DNA of 64,000 nt, from assembly GCA_013540605.1 (NCBI GenBank), contig JABVCK010000008.1, positions 1 to 64,000 of the forward strand. Direction: 5' to 3'. The position numbers and the translations under genes are program-made. Positions 13,621 through 42,044 of the stretch are shown here, in pieces. The stretch comes from Bacillota bacterium (lineage in GTDB: Bacteria > Bacillota > Clostridia > Ch29). The notes below the pieces were generated by a model. The model worked only from the letters and a program-made list of their open reading frames with translations, searched no databases and had not been told where the DNA came from. How positions within the stretch are numbered: position 1 is the first letter of the stretch; each line of letters opens with the position of its first letter.

Positions 13621-13637
13621 AAAAATATCCTCCTTTA

Positions 13638-13817
13638 GATCGCAGGTGCTAGGTGCTAGATCACAGATCACAGGTGCTAGATCGCAGTTCACAGATCGCA
13701 GTTCACAGATCACAGGTTTTTGGGCAAATCTTATAGGTTTTTCCCCATAAGCACTTCCCTGACGTCTGTGATCTGTCATCTGGCCACTGGTCACTAGCCA
13801 CTGGACACTGGACACTG
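13638..13817. repeat. Degenerate heptamer array 1
   Basis: Positions 13638-13721 divide into twelve 7-bp words in register (GATCGCA, GGTGCTA, GATCACA, GTTCACA and the like). After a 40-bp spacer, 13762-13817 divide into eight more (such as GCCACTG and GACACTG). Read on the minus strand the array runs from CAG-starting words to words ending ATCT or ACCT, the same order as in the other three arrays. It fills the gap between the response regulator and the lipoprotein gene and stops 18 bases short of the latter's start codon. Confidence 0.85.
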
Positions 13818-23987: not shown

Positions 23988-24040
23988 ATTATACAATTTA
24001 TCTTACATTATACAATTTATCTTACATTATACAATTTATC
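23988..24040. repeat. Tandem repeat, 19 bp x 2.8
   Basis: Three copies of ATTATACAATTTATCTTAC (the last cut to 15 bp) lie 46 bp upstream of the FCD regulator start. The unit contains the word TTATACAATTTAT, and the array could be a multi-site operator or part of the regulator's promoter region. Confidence 0.75.
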
Positions 24041-25335: not shown

Positions 25336-25620
25336 TTAAATAGATAGAATAAGAAATCTGCCTATAAATGCATCGGGGACATCCCGCGGCAAGGAATACC
25401 CGCGTAGCAGCGGTGTGTCCCCATACCTTAAGGCAGCGGTGTGTCCCCTTTCCTTAAAGTTTGTCAATTTGTCAAGCCTGACCCCATTACTTGCACGATA
25501 GGGCATTGTCAAACAAAGAACCGTCCCCTGTTCTACGAATACACTTGTTGCGAAGATGGATGCCATGGCGATAATGGAGAGTGCAAATGCCATTATTTTA
25601 TGTATTATTTTATGTATCAT
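25336..25620 (-). pseudogene. Secreted-protein gene truncated by repeat elements
   Basis: ATG 25620 has AAAGGTGG at ideal spacing and starts a clear signal peptide (MAFALSIIAMASIFATSV). After about 32 codons the frame enters the GGGGACGG word (25517-25528) and then the REP-like element, where its translation is repeat-derived. It is probably a small secreted protein whose body has been replaced by repeats. Confidence 0.4.
25375..25460. repeat. REP-like element, long copy
   Basis: GGGGACATCC at the left and TGTGTCCCC at the right bracket a GC-rich core containing GCGGCAAGGAATACC and GCAGCGG. The right half (GCAGCGGTGTGTCCCC) is repeated once more directly after. Both ends run into CCTTAA(AG). 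Same family as 403, 39006 and 63067. Confidence 0.75.
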
Positions 25621-37087: not shown

Positions 37088-38284
37088 ATGAGAATAGATA
37101 TGCAAAAACCAATACGGGAAGATAATATAGTAAAGCTGCTGGCAATTTCTGCGGGCCACTTCATGAATGATTTCTATGTAGGGATTATTCCGCCGCTGCT
37201 GTTCCTATTCAAAGAAAACCTTTCGCTGTCGCTCACACAGCAAGGCTTTATTGCGTTTATGTTCACCGCAAGCGGGACCTGGATACAGCCCATTATAGGG
37301 TACATGGTGGACAGGCGTGACAGGACCTGGCTTTTGACCGTATCACTGGTATGGATATCGGTCTGGGTTTGTATATCGGGCTTTATCACCAACTACTACC
37401 TGTTGCTGCTGGCGCTGCTATTAGGCGGGGTCTCTTCGGCGCTTTACCATCCCCTTGGTTCTGCCATAGCAATAGGTTTGGCAAACCGGCGTGCCGGGAC
37501 CAGCCTTTCGGTATTTATGACGGTGGGAGGCTTTGCAATCGCTGTCAGCGCAGTCGCAGCGCTCATTCCCATAAGGTATGGCCTTGATAAGCTTGTATAT
37601 TTTATTATACCGGGATTGGCGGTATCTCTGCTCATGTACCTTGCAAAGACCCATGAAATCAAACTGAACCAGGAGAGCGCGGCGGCCGTTGACCGCGCCG
37701 TAAAGACGCCCCTGACGTCCTCCGCCCTGCTTTGGGTTGCCATTCTGGTTGTAATTTCGGCCGCAAGAAACTGGTTGAGAATCTCCCTGCCTACATACGG
37801 GGCCCAGCTTTTCCTGACCAAGTCGGTTTCCCCGGAGAGTTTTTCTTTGCTTCTATCCATTCAGTATTTCGCGGCATCCTTCGGCAATATAGGCGGCGGG
37901 TATTTGTCGGACATCATTGGAACAAAAAGAGTCCTGATCCTCACCATGGTCCTTATTATCGCTTGCCTTGGAGCCACCGTATATTCAACGGGCGTCATGG
38001 CAATGGCCTCTTTCGTCCTGACGGGAATATTCATTTCCGCCTCCAACTCCGCCAATATACTCCTCACCAGAGACCTGCTGCCAAACAACGCAACCCTTGC
38101 AACCGGTCTGATAATGGGCCTCGCAACGGGTATCGGGAGCCTCGGCGTACTACTCCAGGGCTATTTGGGGGATATTTACGGCATACCGTTTTCATTTGTC
38201 TGTCTGTTTATAACGGTTGTCGTTTCCGGCCTGCTGACAATAACCGTTCCTGCGGGTAAAAAACAGCCTGCCCGCGATGACTAG
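37088..38284 (+). CDS. MFS transporter, fosmidomycin-resistance (Fsr) type
   Basis: A 398-residue major facilitator with twelve predicted helices. The N-terminal HFMNDFYVGIIPPLLFLF and SGTWIQPIIGYMVDRRDR are typical of the Fsr subgroup. Members export fosmidomycin and unknown natural substrates. The SD is GGGAGA; ATG 37100 is an alternative start. The gene converges with ubiX and overlaps it by 4 bases. Confidence 0.87.
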   Translation: MRIDMQKPIREDNIVKLLAISAGHFMNDFYVGIIPPLLFLFKENLSLSLTQQGFIAFMFTASGTWIQPIIGYMVDRRDRTWLLTVSLVWISVWVCISGFITNYYLLLLALLLGGVSSALYHPLGSAIAIGLANRRAGTSLSVFMTVGGFAIAVSAVAALIPIRYGLDKLVYFIIPGLAVSLLMYLAKTHEIKLNQESAAAVDRAVKTPLTSSALLWVAILVVISAARNWLRISLPTYGAQLFLTKSVSPESFSLLLSIQYFAASFGNIGGGYLSDIIGTKRVLILTMVLIIACLGATVYSTGVMAMASFVLTGIFISASNSANILLTRDLLPNNATLATGLIMGLATGIGSLGVLLQGYLGDIYGIPFSFVCLFITVVVSGLLTITVPAGKKQPARDD

Positions 38285-38841
38285 ATACCCCTTCCCCAAC
38301 GCCTGTAACCCTCGATTTCTATTCCAAACTGATCTAAAGCCCTGCCCACGGTTTGATTGATGACTTCCTCCAAGTTTCTAGGGTTTGTGTAAAAGGCCGG
38401 GACAGGCGGCATAATAACAACTCCTATGCGCGAAAGCTTCAGCATATTTTCCAGATGTATGGCGCTCAGCGGAGTTTCCCTTGGCATGAGGACCAGCTTT
38501 CTTCCTTCCTTTATCGCCACGTCGGCGGCCCTTGTTATCAAATCATCGGCATAGCCGCAGGCAATGCCGGCCAGAGTTTTCATGCTGCATGGCGCCACTA
38601 TCATCCCGTCGCTTTTGAAGGAACCGCTCGAGATCCCGGCGGCCAAATCTTCTTCATCATATGAGAACGATGCTAGTGAAGCTACTTTTTCCACAGAATA
38701 GTCCGTTTCCTGCACGATGGCGGCCCTGCCCCACCTGCTGATTACCAGGTGCGTTTCTACCCCGCTTTTCTTCAATTCTTCCAAAATGCGTATGCCGTAT
38801 ATCACCCCGGAAGCCCCGGTAATTCCGATGATTAGCTTCAA
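38281..38841 (-). CDS. ubiX: UbiX-family flavin prenyltransferase
   Basis: A 186-residue flavoprotein of the UbiX/Pad1 family, which prenylates FMN to make the cofactor of UbiD decarboxylases. Motifs: GITGASGVIYGI at the start, SRWGRAAI, APCSMKTLAGIACGYADDLI and RETPLSAIHLENM. TTG 38841 is the start because AAGGAGG lies 7 bases ahead; the GTG at 38862 would place the SD inside the gene. No ubiD gene is present in the window. Confidence 0.9.
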   Translation of the reverse strand: MKLIIGITGASGVIYGIRILEELKKSGVETHLVISRWGRAAIVQETDYSVEKVASLASFSYDEEDLAAGISSGSFKSDGMIVAPCSMKTLAGIACGYADDLITRAADVAIKEGRKLVLMPRETPLSAIHLENMLKLSRIGVVIMPPVPAFYTNPRNLEEVINQTVGRALDQFGIEIEGYRRWGRGI

Positions 38842-38926
38842 AGTATTACCTCCTTGCTTCACAATGTGTCTCCCCTCACCTTATAGTATCAGATTGCAGT
38901 GAAAATTCAAATTTTTAAAATACCCC

Positions 38927-38955
38927 TTGCATTAAAGAAAATTTGAGTATATAAT
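38927..38955 (+). promoter_or_regulatory. Promoter of the YtrA-type ABC operon
   Basis: TTGCAT at 38927-38932, 17-bp spacer, and TATAAT at 38950-38955. The operator at 38967-38990 lies at +5 to +30. Confidence 0.75.
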
Positions 38956-38966
38956 ACGAGTGTGGT

Positions 38967-38990
38967 AGTGCATTAGTTTATTAATTCACT
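38967..38990. promoter_or_regulatory. YtrA-type operator
   Basis: AGTGCATTA and TAATTCACT form an inverted repeat (8 of 9 positions) with a 6-bp centre, directly downstream of the -10 box. YtrA-subfamily regulators bind AGTG-N-ATTA-type palindromes at this position, so the gene at 39078 is probably self-repressed. Confidence 0.7.
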
Positions 38991-39005
38991 GATACATAAC
39001 TAAAA

Positions 39006-39063
39006 GGGGACATTCCGCGGCAAGGAATACCGCATAGCGGCGGTGTGTCCCCATACCTTAAAG
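39006..39063. repeat. REP-like element in the leader of the ABC operon
   Basis: GGGGACATTCC to TGTGTCCCCATACCTTAAAG; nearly the same as 25375. It lies between the operator and the SD of the gntR gene, so the mRNA leader carries it. Its end CCTTAAAG is fused directly to the GAGGAGG SD. Confidence 0.75.
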
Positions 39064-39077
39064 AGGAGGTATGCGTA

Positions 39078-39437
39078 TTGGAATTTGACAGCACGCGTCC
39101 TATATATCTGCAGATTATCGATGTCATTAAAAAGCAGATCATCCGCGGTGAACTGAAACCGGGTGACAAGGTGTTGTCCCAAAGGGACTTTGCAGAAAAG
39201 ATCAGGGTCAATCCCAACACCGTGCAAAGAGCTTACAAGGAGATGGAAAGCATGAGCATCCTGGAAACGATAAGGGGTCAGGGTACATTTATATGCAACC
39301 GGCCTGAAATGTTGAAAGAAATAAAGGCCGAAATGGCAAACGAAATCCTGACGACTTTTATCTCGGATATGCGTTCGCTGGGCTTTGAAACAGATGAGAT
39401 CAGAGATATTGTAAACAGTTCTCTTAAAGGCGAATAG
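39078..39437 (+). CDS. GntR-family regulator, YtrA subfamily
   Basis: A 119-residue protein: GntR winged helix (RPIYLQIIDVIKKQIIRGEL, then SQRDFAEKIRVNPNTVQRAY and TIRGQGTF) followed by only a short helical tail, as in the YtrA subfamily that controls ABC transporters. The start is TTG 39078 with AGGAGG 8 bases ahead; an ATG at 39071 is out of frame. First gene of an operon with the ATPase and permease; promoter and operator are visible upstream. Confidence 0.9.
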   Translation: MEFDSTRPIYLQIIDVIKKQIIRGELKPGDKVLSQRDFAEKIRVNPNTVQRAYKEMESMSILETIRGQGTFICNRPEMLKEIKAEMANEILTTFISDMRSLGFETDEIRDIVNSSLKGE

Positions 39438-39448
39438 GGGGGAATTAT

Positions 39449-40141
39449 ATGATCGAATTCAAAAATGTGACAAAAACCTATGGAAGTATTAAGGCGCTGG
39501 ACGGATTTACCACAAAAATCGAAGACGGCAAAATCGTCGGGCTTCTCGGGCCGAACGGTACGGGCAAATCCACATCCCTGAAGATAGCCGCAGGGCTGAG
39601 CAAACCGGATTTCGGCTCGGTTGAGATAAACGGGGCGGAGCCTTCAAAGGAAACAAAGGCGCAGGTTGCTTTCCTTCCCGAGATAGACCACCTGTACCCG
39701 TGGATGACTATCCGACGGTGCGCGGATTTTATCTCCGCTTTCTACGCCGACTGGGATTGGGACAAATATAAAGAGCTCGTTGAATTCCTCGGATTGAATC
39801 CATCCACAGTAATAGGAAAGATATCCAAAGGAATGAGGGCTAAAGCAAAACTGCTTTTCACCTTTTCGAGGAATGCCCCCATTGTTCTGCTGGATGAGCC
39901 CCTTTCGGGCATCGATGTGCTGGTAAGGGAAAAAATAATCCAGACAATAGTCAGGGACTACGGCAAGGGCGGTCAGACGATAGTCATATCCACCCATGAA
40001 ATCTCGGAAATCGAGCCGCTAATCGAATACGTAATCTTCCTTGAAGACGGCAAAATAAAACTGGAAGGCAACGTAGAAGACCTCAGGTTCAAATACAAAA
40101 GGTCCCTTGTCGATATAATGAAGGAGGTATATGGACGATGA
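39449..40141 (+). CDS. ABC transporter ATP-binding protein
   Basis: A 230-residue ATPase with Walker A GPNGTGKST, signature ISKGMRAKAK (a variant of LSGGQ, as in YtrB/YxlF-like ATPases), Walker B IVLLDEP and H-loop STHE. It follows the regulator by 11 bases (SD GGGGGG) and overlaps the permease start by ATGA, so the three genes are coupled. It belongs to the group that exports or imports across the membrane in response to cell-wall-active compounds; the substrate is not known. Confidence 0.92.
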   Translation: MIEFKNVTKTYGSIKALDGFTTKIEDGKIVGLLGPNGTGKSTSLKIAAGLSKPDFGSVEINGAEPSKETKAQVAFLPEIDHLYPWMTIRRCADFISAFYADWDWDKYKELVEFLGLNPSTVIGKISKGMRAKAKLLFTFSRNAPIVLLDEPLSGIDVLVREKIIQTIVRDYGKGGQTIVISTHEISEIEPLIEYVIFLEDGKIKLEGNVEDLRFKYKRSLVDIMKEVYGR

Positions 40142-40923
40142 ATACAAACAAAGGCCGGATGTTTGCCAGACTATATTTGAAGGACCTTCAGGACATTAAA
40201 ATGGAGAGCGCCATTTTTATGGTAAGCATTGCTATATGGAATTTATTCCTGTACTTGAAATACCTGTCCAACTGGCCGTATGAGCTCAGTCTGGGCTTTA
40301 GTGCCATAGCCTTCGGCATAGCCGCTTTTATCCCCTTTGTCGAATCCTTCAAGCTGCTGTGGGATGAGTGGAAGCACAATACTGTTTATCTCATCATGTC
40401 CCTGCCGGTATCCGGGACAATGGTGCTGCTGTCAAAGCTTGCGGTTATAGTAACACAGTATATGGCGCTGAGCCTGTTTTCCACAGCATGCTTCCTTCTG
40501 TTGGCCTATGCAACACCCGCATGGGAAGCCGGGTGGAGCTTTATTAGAAGCGTAATAACGGACCAATCGCTTCCGATAAAATTCGCGATGCTGTTCTATG
40601 CTTCGTCAGTTGTGGGCATTATGTACACCGCAGCGCTCGCTTTCCTCAGCTCGGTTGTAGGGAAACTGGCAAGAAAACACTCCGGTTTGGCATCCTTCGG
40701 TACCTTCCTGATAGCCGGATATGTGTGCTCAAAGGCATCCGACCTTATATCTAGGGGCTTGGAAAAGCTAGGGGTTACCGGGCTTTATTACAATCACCCC
40801 TATGTTCTCCGTGATGCAACCATATCAGGTTTCCCGACAGCTCCTATGCTTTCACTCCTAATAGTCGGCGCGGCAGTATTCATACTGGCGGTCAGGGTCT
40901 ACGAAAGCGCAGTCGAACTTTAA
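40138..40923 (+). CDS. ABC transporter permease of the YtrA-type operon
   Basis: A 261-residue protein with six hydrophobic segments (SAIFMVSIAIWNLFLYLKYL at the N-terminus to SLLIVGAAVFILAVRVY at the end). A polar loop LWDEWKHNTVYLIMSLP is typical of this permease class. SD AAGGAGG lies in the end of the ATPase gene. The last 19 codon bases plus stop (40902-40924) are duplicated at 41074-41096 beyond a heptamer array. Confidence 0.82.
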   Translation: MNTNKGRMFARLYLKDLQDIKMESAIFMVSIAIWNLFLYLKYLSNWPYELSLGFSAIAFGIAAFIPFVESFKLLWDEWKHNTVYLIMSLPVSGTMVLLSKLAVIVTQYMALSLFSTACFLLLAYATPAWEAGWSFIRSVITDQSLPIKFAMLFYASSVVGIMYTAALAFLSSVVGKLARKHSGLASFGTFLIAGYVCSKASDLISRGLEKLGVTGLYYNHPYVLRDATISGFPTAPMLSLLIVGAAVFILAVRVYESAVEL

Positions 40924-40924
40924 G
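40902..40924. repeat. 23-bp direct repeat, copy 1 (3' end of permease gene)
   Basis: The 23 bases from CGAAAGCGCAG to the stop codon and following G are identical to 41074-41096. The 149 bp between the two copies hold heptamer array 3 and a GGGGACGG word. Confidence 0.9.
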
Positions 40925-40937
40925 GGCAGAAACATAG

Positions 40938-41025
40938 ATGGCAGGCATCAGAAGTCAGTGACCAGTGATCAGTGGTCAGGGCTAGCACCTAGGACCTGGT
41001 ATCTGCGATCTGCCGGCTGCGATCT
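40938..41025. repeat. Degenerate heptamer array 3
   Basis: Six in-register words ending in CAG (40938-40979), a 4-bp phase step, then six words ending in CCT, GCT or TCT (40984-41025; gcgatct twice). Same CAG-to-ATCT order as arrays 2 and 4. It is followed at 41041 by AGAACCGTCCCC and two CCCGTGTCTTT-like repeats. Confidence 0.85.
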
Positions 41026-41073
41026 ATGCCTTCAGACAGAAGAACCGTCCCCGTGTCTTTCCCGTGTCTTTTC

Positions 41074-41096
41074 CGAAAGCGCAGTCGAACTTTAAG
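41074..41096. repeat. 23-bp direct repeat, copy 2
   Basis: Exact copy of 40902-40924, including the TAA of the permease, but with no coding role here. It marks the far border of the inserted or duplicated segment. Confidence 0.9.
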
Positions 41097-41108: not shown

Positions 41109-42044
41109 TTATCTTGATCTGGGTTCAACATGAACAACTATCTGGGCCTTAAGGAGCTGTGTAAGCTCCTTTTCCACTTCATCGGCAAGGTCATGGGCAC
41201 TCAACAAGTCCATAGACTCATCTACCTCGACGTGCAGAGATACTTCCTTGTGATTGCCGTAATCATGCACCTGTATCTTGTGAACATCCTCCACTCCGGA
41301 AATTGATTTTGCCCTGCTGCATATGTTTTCTATTACTTCACTGGAAGGAGAAGCCCCAATAAGGGTATGGCTTGATGATTTTGCCAGTTCCCAACCGGTA
41401 TAGATTATCAGTATGGACACACCCACACCCAACAGCGGGTCCACCCAATAAATACCCTTTACCGCTGCGAGGTTGCCGACAGCAACCAGGAAGGACGCTA
41501 TTGCATCGCTTCTATGGTGCCATGCATCCGCTTCAAGGGTGGATGAGCTTATTTCATGGCCCAGTTCCGATGCGAACCTCGCCATCCATTCCTTCAGAAC
41601 CGCCGAGGCTGTCATCACAATGACCACCCACCAGCCCCCTCCAACGGTTATGGGCTTCATAAGCCTTTCCACAGACGCTTTGATAAATTCCAGTCCCGTA
41701 ATAATGAGCAGTATTGATATAATCAGGGTGGCGATAATCTCAATGCGTCCATGGCCGTAAGGGTGCTCTTCGTCAGGGCCCTTGCTGCTGAGTTTGAAAC
41801 CAAACAGCACGACAACGGAAGAAAGCACATCGGATAGCGTATGAAAGGCATCGGCAATTATGGATATGCTTCCAATGAATGCGCCTATGGCAAACTTGAT
41901 AATAAACAGCACAACGTTTCCTATTATGCTAACCCAGGCTTCAAGCAGGCCTGTGGCCAGCCTGGTATCAATCCCTTTATTTCTGTGCTTCTCCACTATA
42001 AATTTTTTCTTCAGCCACTCGCCAGAAAAAAGATTTAACCGCAT
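41109..42044 (-). CDS. Cation diffusion facilitator family transporter
   Basis: A 311-residue CDF transporter: six membrane helices with the metal site in ADAFHTLSDVLSS (TM2; HxxxD) and LEADAWHHRSDA (TM5; HxxxD), then a C-terminal cytoplasmic domain with VEDVHKIQVHDYGNHKEVSLHVEVD. It exports divalent metal (zinc, iron, manganese or cadmium; not resolved) in exchange for protons. SD GAGGGG precedes the ATG. An operator of the MarR type lies 105 bp upstream, so the MarR protein at 42184 probably represses it. Confidence 0.92.
   Translation of the reverse strand: MRLNLFSGEWLKKKFIVEKHRNKGIDTRLATGLLEAWVSIIGNVVLFIIKFAIGAFIGSISIIADAFHTLSDVLSSVVVLFGFKLSSKGPDEEHPYGHGRIEIIATLIISILLIITGLEFIKASVERLMKPITVGGGWWVVIVMTASAVLKEWMARFASELGHEISSSTLEADAWHHRSDAIASFLVAVGNLAAVKGIYWVDPLLGVGVSILIIYTGWELAKSSSHTLIGASPSSEVIENICSRAKSISGVEDVHKIQVHDYGNHKEVSLHVEVDESMDLLSAHDLADEVEKELTQLLKAQIVVHVEPRSR

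Follow-up and report, generated by a model that had tools for sequence, protein, structure and literature searches.

The window, by which we mean the whole 64,000-nucleotide stretch analysed, contains an operon on the plus strand that opens with an ORF for a GntR-family regulator (39045–39437; PF00392, E = 2.4e-12), continues with the ORF of an ABC transporter ATPase (39449–40141; PF00005, E = 8.2e-23) and closes with a putative ABC permease (40138–40923), which has no Pfam match and is assigned from its operon position and its homologue in L173, a locus where the GntR-ATPase-permease order is identical. Convergent with the permease, on the minus strand, lies the gene of a cation diffusion facilitator with Cation_efflux and ZT_dimer domains (41109–42044), whose 3′ end is intact, the ZT_dimer domain occupying residues 233–308 of 311.

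Between these two genes the end of the permease gene is duplicated. The sequence CGAAAGCGCAGTCGAACTTTAAG occurs on the plus strand at 40902–40924 and again at 41074–41096, and the two copies are exact, lie 149 bp apart and extend no further on either side. An earlier sequence-only reading had reported this exact 23-bp repeat of the gene end, correctly, and was also right that the stop codon lies inside it; what it described as the last 23 bases of the gene is, however, the last 22 bases including TAA, plus one G past the stop. Since the left copy retains the stop codon, the permease gene is still intact. That this copy is the genuine 3′ end of the gene follows from the terminus of its closest homologue found (L173, 35% identical), which ends in YERKVEL and matches the YESAVEL of the permease; the right copy is non-coding. 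If the 149 bp and one 23-bp copy are taken out, the original spacer between the two stop codons comes to 13 bp.

A chance origin of the repeat is negligible, a 23-bp match between two 120-bp flanks being expected by chance with a probability of ~1e-10. Apart from a short-period tandem array at 23988, it is the sole exact direct repeat of at least 20 bp within 1.5 kb in the window. Among the 25 short-range (≤2 kb) direct repeats of at least 16 bp listed for ~957 kb of sequence from the same genome it is the second longest, and no other unique flanking pair among them closely encloses an array; the other array-enclosing repeat pairs lie inside arrays or, in one case, 1.3 kb apart. At positions 1425 and 2710 of L030 (G000:C29) stand two copies of TGTTTCACGTGAAACA, 1.3 kb apart, a sequence that presumably resembles the parS site of ParB.

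The enclosed 149-bp segment consists almost entirely of an array of YAGNNNN/CTRNNNN heptamers and one palindromic GGGGACGG element; the sequence-only reading had noted an array and a sequence word here. The array (40925–41029, unstranded; 40935–41026 for the in-phase part within the limits of our detector) is not a plain tandem repeat, as seven YAGNNNN words are followed by seven CTRNNNN words, and its terminus CTGCGATCTGCCGRCTGCGAT (41003–41026, unstranded) is common to many other arrays. The REP-like element (41035–41057, minus strand) is made up of a GACAC arm, a GGGGACGGTTCTT core and a TGTC arm, and beside it is a truncated extra arm (AGACACGGG on the minus strand; 41061–41069), a partial second copy. 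The two 23-bp copies bracket the array and the REP element only, with a few bases of slack. The right copy abuts the 5′ side of the REP element, which is the side where truncated arm copies occur.

Flanks of other arrays

The ~957 kb searched for further arrays comprised the window's contig, contigs C1 and C35 almost in full, three stretches of 20 kb and a set of 3-kb stretches picked because they hold array matches. Our detector, which counts arrays of at least six words and passes over shorter ones, found 78 arrays; one without full flanks was left out, leaving 77. The longest direct repeat common to the two 120-bp flanks measured 5–10 bp in 76 of these and 23 bp in the array at issue. When flanks were mismatched (n = 600 pairs), the longest match was 5–13 bp in 598 pairs; two pairs reached 18 and 19 bp, which probably reflects repeat families recurring near arrays; the 5–10 bp repeats of true flanks show no excess over this control. 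A flank repeat longer than 10 bp is thus present at only one of the 77 arrays, which argues against the 23 bp being a target-site duplication of the kind that arrays would generate. The sequence-only reading had proposed either a target-site duplication or a template-switch insertion and had named flanking duplications at other arrays as a check, and their absence from 76 of the 77, a result it had itself listed as refuting, tells against both the target-site duplication and the idea of a general property of arrays.

Spread of the arrays and palindromes

In each array word three positions are constant (YAG or CTR) and the remaining four are filled from a small vocabulary, which yields many words and no single dominant heptamer. 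The 7-bp periodicity is pronounced (581+624 matches to five successive YAG words vs 8+16 for the reversed pattern), the two halves face inward in 61 of 78 arrays and outward in two, and 43 of 45 arrays lie outside ORFs. One 21-nt array terminus is found at 19 places in the sample, so the arrays are copies of one another rather than independent products of slippage. In L027, L028 and L054, a REP element is joined to the array terminus by the identical junction GCTTCCGCAGATCGCAGTCGG, while the outer flanks differ and the surroundings are unrelated; this exact junction, common to three loci with differing outer flanks, suggests that array and REP were copied as a unit, and to judge from such junctions, composites of the two seem to be copied together. 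None of these three loci has a flanking duplication. At the permease, an identically oriented REP element adjoins the shared terminus, though its arms differ and the gap is several bases longer; array plus REP is therefore a plausible inserted unit.

A role of the arrays at the transcript level was considered and found no support. Among 56 two-sided arrays of up to 220 bp (longer arrays and those not simply two-sided were left out), the folding energy was below that of full shuffles (mean z −2.2) but no different from that of shuffles keeping the heptad frame (mean z −0.04), so that no RNA hairpin with co-varying spacers was detected in this set. Orientation is not tied to transcription either, with 16 arrays pointing one way and 18 the other between rightward gene pairs.

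The centre of some arrays departs from the heptamer pattern and has an ACGTC-type word that recurs close to where the two halves turn, as seen at 13636–13817 of the window and in L007, L016 and L034; a loose pattern for this centre is matched by 13 of the 78 arrays. Another dispersed family, marked by the words GGGGACACACC and GGAATGTCCCC and often near arrays, occurs in L039 (1540–1720) and in the window at 25407–25457 and 39006–39072. Array words extend far outside this lineage: they were present in 24 of 148 genomes searched, this one counted, and, among the matches listed, in records of many phyla as judged by their titles and not by comparing the sequences themselves, although independent origins are possible for simple tandem repeats.

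Inverted copies of the GGGGACGG palindrome lie on both sides of a 263-aa gene with a Y1_Tnp domain (ORF at 1450–2241 of L186), and the palindrome also occurs in many dispersed extragenic copies, two traits by which REP elements are recognised. The core AAGAACCGTCCCC has 35 exact copies in the genome vs none for the reversed pattern, and complementary arms of at least 5 nt are present at 28 of 42 GGGGACGG sites. A GC-rich stem with a GT(A/G)G head beside it is a further REP trait, but inspection of the 42 sites by eye showed no such constant head, GTAG included. An extra truncated direct copy of an arm lies within 75 bp on the 5′ side at 19 of these 42 sites vs 4.3% when arms are swapped between sites, which suggests that re-copying beside REP elements is common. 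The unit at 1384–2280 of L186 (G000:C15, ~16.8–17.6 kb) is RAYT-like although this genome is not a gammaproteobacterial one; the loop of its palindromes is constant and the stem arms are variable. In L032 and L170 (G000:C19, ~113.8 kb), GGGGACGG elements lie within array centres after a similar stretch, CCCGGGTTAKGCTTTT, and look, from these two sites, as if they favoured one place of entry into arrays.

The best site for testing whether arrays arrive as insertions is the rpsB-tsf spacer, which holds a 17-word array in this genome and none in any of five family genomes; a conserved terminator-like sequence and ribosome-binding site flank the array here and lie close together in the relatives. 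With this pair of filled and empty sites, arrays behave as insertions would when set against relatives, and at rpsB-tsf a gain here appears a simpler reading than a loss elsewhere. No long duplication is present at the filled rpsB-tsf site, where the flanks of the detected array have no more than 7 bp in common. The pstB-phoU spacer is without an array in three of the five family genomes, namely those with a close phoU match. At yqeK, G001 and G005 have no array, G002 has a 4-word chain, G004 has a similar stretch by eye and G003 gave no match; because of G002 and G004, yqeK was rejected as a clean empty site in that genus.

The permease was found in none of the five family genomes and in 2 of 60 relatives searched (this genome not being among those without a match). 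Across the class it was present in 10 of 391 genomes including this one, with 35–36% identity for the best other, and it had no match in the named collection. No array of at least five words is present in the eight permease loci of relatives that were scanned. As no relative with the same permease-efflux gene pair was found among the five family genomes, the 60 relatives, the 391 class genomes and the named collection, a single-copy empty site is unseen. In the window, 38281–40923, between an MFS gene and the efflux gene, holds a flavoprotein gene and the GntR-ABC-permease operon; comparable MFS and efflux genes are directly adjacent in G003, the resemblance of the MFS gene to window 37088–38284 being judged by eye. 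G003 was rejected as an empty site for the array, the whole flavoprotein-GntR-ABC block being absent between these genes.

Origin of the duplicated gene end

The account that we favour, at about even confidence, is a single template-switch insertion of an array-REP composite in which 23 bp of the gene end were re-copied. A single replication or repair accident would have copied the composite into the spacer, then 13 bp long, that separated the stop codon of the permease from the convergent efflux gene: having copied the permease end, the polymerase would switch to an array-REP template elsewhere, copy ~149 bases from it and come back onto the original template 23 bases upstream of its departure point, so that the gene end would be copied twice. 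We infer that there was one event, that it was a template switch and that copying ran in this direction. Since 76 of 77 arrays are without such copies, a one-off accident fits better than a rule of a transposase. Several observations weigh against an insertion of this kind: the assembly holds no near-identical donor for the 149 bp (elsewhere in the genome, the best match of this array reaches only 88% over 73 bp), the empty site is unseen, the segment's junctions show no clear microhomology, and L027, L028 and L054 have no duplication.

Possible, though to our minds doubtful, is a later origin, with array and REP in place first and a replication fork that, halted by the REP hairpin, dropped back ~170 bases, copied 23 bases of the permease end a second time and then carried on past the hairpin. 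The extra direct arm copies on the same side at 19 of 42 REP sites speak for such a back-switch, as do the 11-bp tandem CCCGTGTCTTT that adjoins the 23-bp copy and the entry of 76 of the 77 arrays without long duplications; it needs, however, a re-copied piece that ends, by coincidence, a few bases from the array start, and no other REP site has re-copied unique host sequence of at least 16 bp. Both this back-switch and the template-switch insertion predict the observed sequence. The earlier claim that the array arrived by insertion is therefore kept in part: the bracketing duplication fits it and the rpsB-tsf array is without counterpart in all five family genomes, but to call the duplication "direct evidence" was too strong, because a later back-switch at GGGGACGG, next to an array that was there beforehand, would look identical.

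Small tandem duplications are common in bacteria, and the 23 bp of the gene end might have been duplicated in tandem first, with the array and REP then inserted at the junction; this we consider quite unlikely, because two events must meet at one point and the window's repeat list contains no other 23-bp tandem of unique sequence. A target-site duplication, as suggested by the sequence-only reading, made by a transposon-like array with a staggered cut, would account for perfect copies on both sides of the segment, but it is very improbable and was rejected on the count of one in 77 arrays; the 5–10 bp repeats are in no excess over mismatched flanks, the rpsB-tsf insertion offers at most 7 bp common to the flanks of the detected array, and the Y1/IS200 family, including the REP transposase, is described in the available text of PMC2817692 as making no larger target-site duplications. 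An assembly artefact is scarcely credible, for although the draft genome is in 36 contigs and repeats are a usual source of error, this repeat is shorter than a read and lies within a 73-kb contig, and the enclosed array sequence is distinct from every other array.

The date of the event is not fixed by the identity of the copies, which the sequence-only reading had taken as a sign of recent insertion. Identity at 23 of 23 sites has a probability of 0.31 at 5% divergence and still ~0.05 at 12%, and no near-identical donor of the array remains in the genome, which leaves the argument weak; a perfect match of this length is no proof of a recent event.

Two claims that might readily be run together are thus kept apart, namely that arrays behave as insertions and yet make no target-site duplications, and the single duplication becomes a rare fingerprint of how a composite entered or was reworked. 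More speculatively, and rather unlikely as it stands, inward-facing YAG/CTR arrays with GGGGACGG palindromes might be composite mobile elements, themselves non-autonomous, that the resident Y1 transposase moves via a single-stranded copy step, the polymerase sometimes re-copying target beside the hairpin; if that were true, the duplicated 23 bp would preserve one such slip intact.

Comparison with known repeat systems

Local jumps in copying that leave a short exact duplicate are also a feature of the short-range template-switch mutations of great ape genomes, as far as the available text describes them (PMC7954356). Those differ from the present case, where ~149 bp of repeat DNA lies between the copies and where the mechanism is our own inference.

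Inverted REP copies flanking a Y1 transposase gene are the arrangement that defines RAYTs, and by the criteria of that paper qualifying RAYTs were confined to gammaproteobacteria in the text available (PMC2817692). The Y1 transposase gene described here, flanked on both sides by inverted GGGGACGG palindromes with dispersed copies in the genome, resembles this arrangement; the difference is that the 13-nt loop is conserved here, whereas the stem arms vary from site to site.

Heptanucleotide arrays in spacers are already known. The literature searched yielded no published description of the degenerate YAG/CTR form with inward-facing halves and, by title, no bacterial repeat paper with the array words or with the GGGGACGG core. 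The closest description, within the available text, and the only directly relevant one on heptanucleotide repeats in the literature searched, is that of the intergenic TAACTGA arrays of Beggiatoaceae, Cyanobacteria and Bacteroidetes, of which one genome has ~170 sets (PMC4679880, which also cites the long simple sequence repeats of Mrazek 2007). The likeness lies in the 7-bp unit, the intergenic location and the patchy distribution over phyla, and TAACTGA, read as CTG-ATAA-CTG, fits the CTRNNNN rule. In those arrays, a single invariant heptamer prevails and repeats of related heptamers are rare, whereas the words here are degenerate and the arrays have opposed halves (61/78). The same text finds no transfer mechanism evident for the TAACTGA arrays (PMC4679880), and the recurrent REP-array junction may offer a lead on what moves arrays of this kind.
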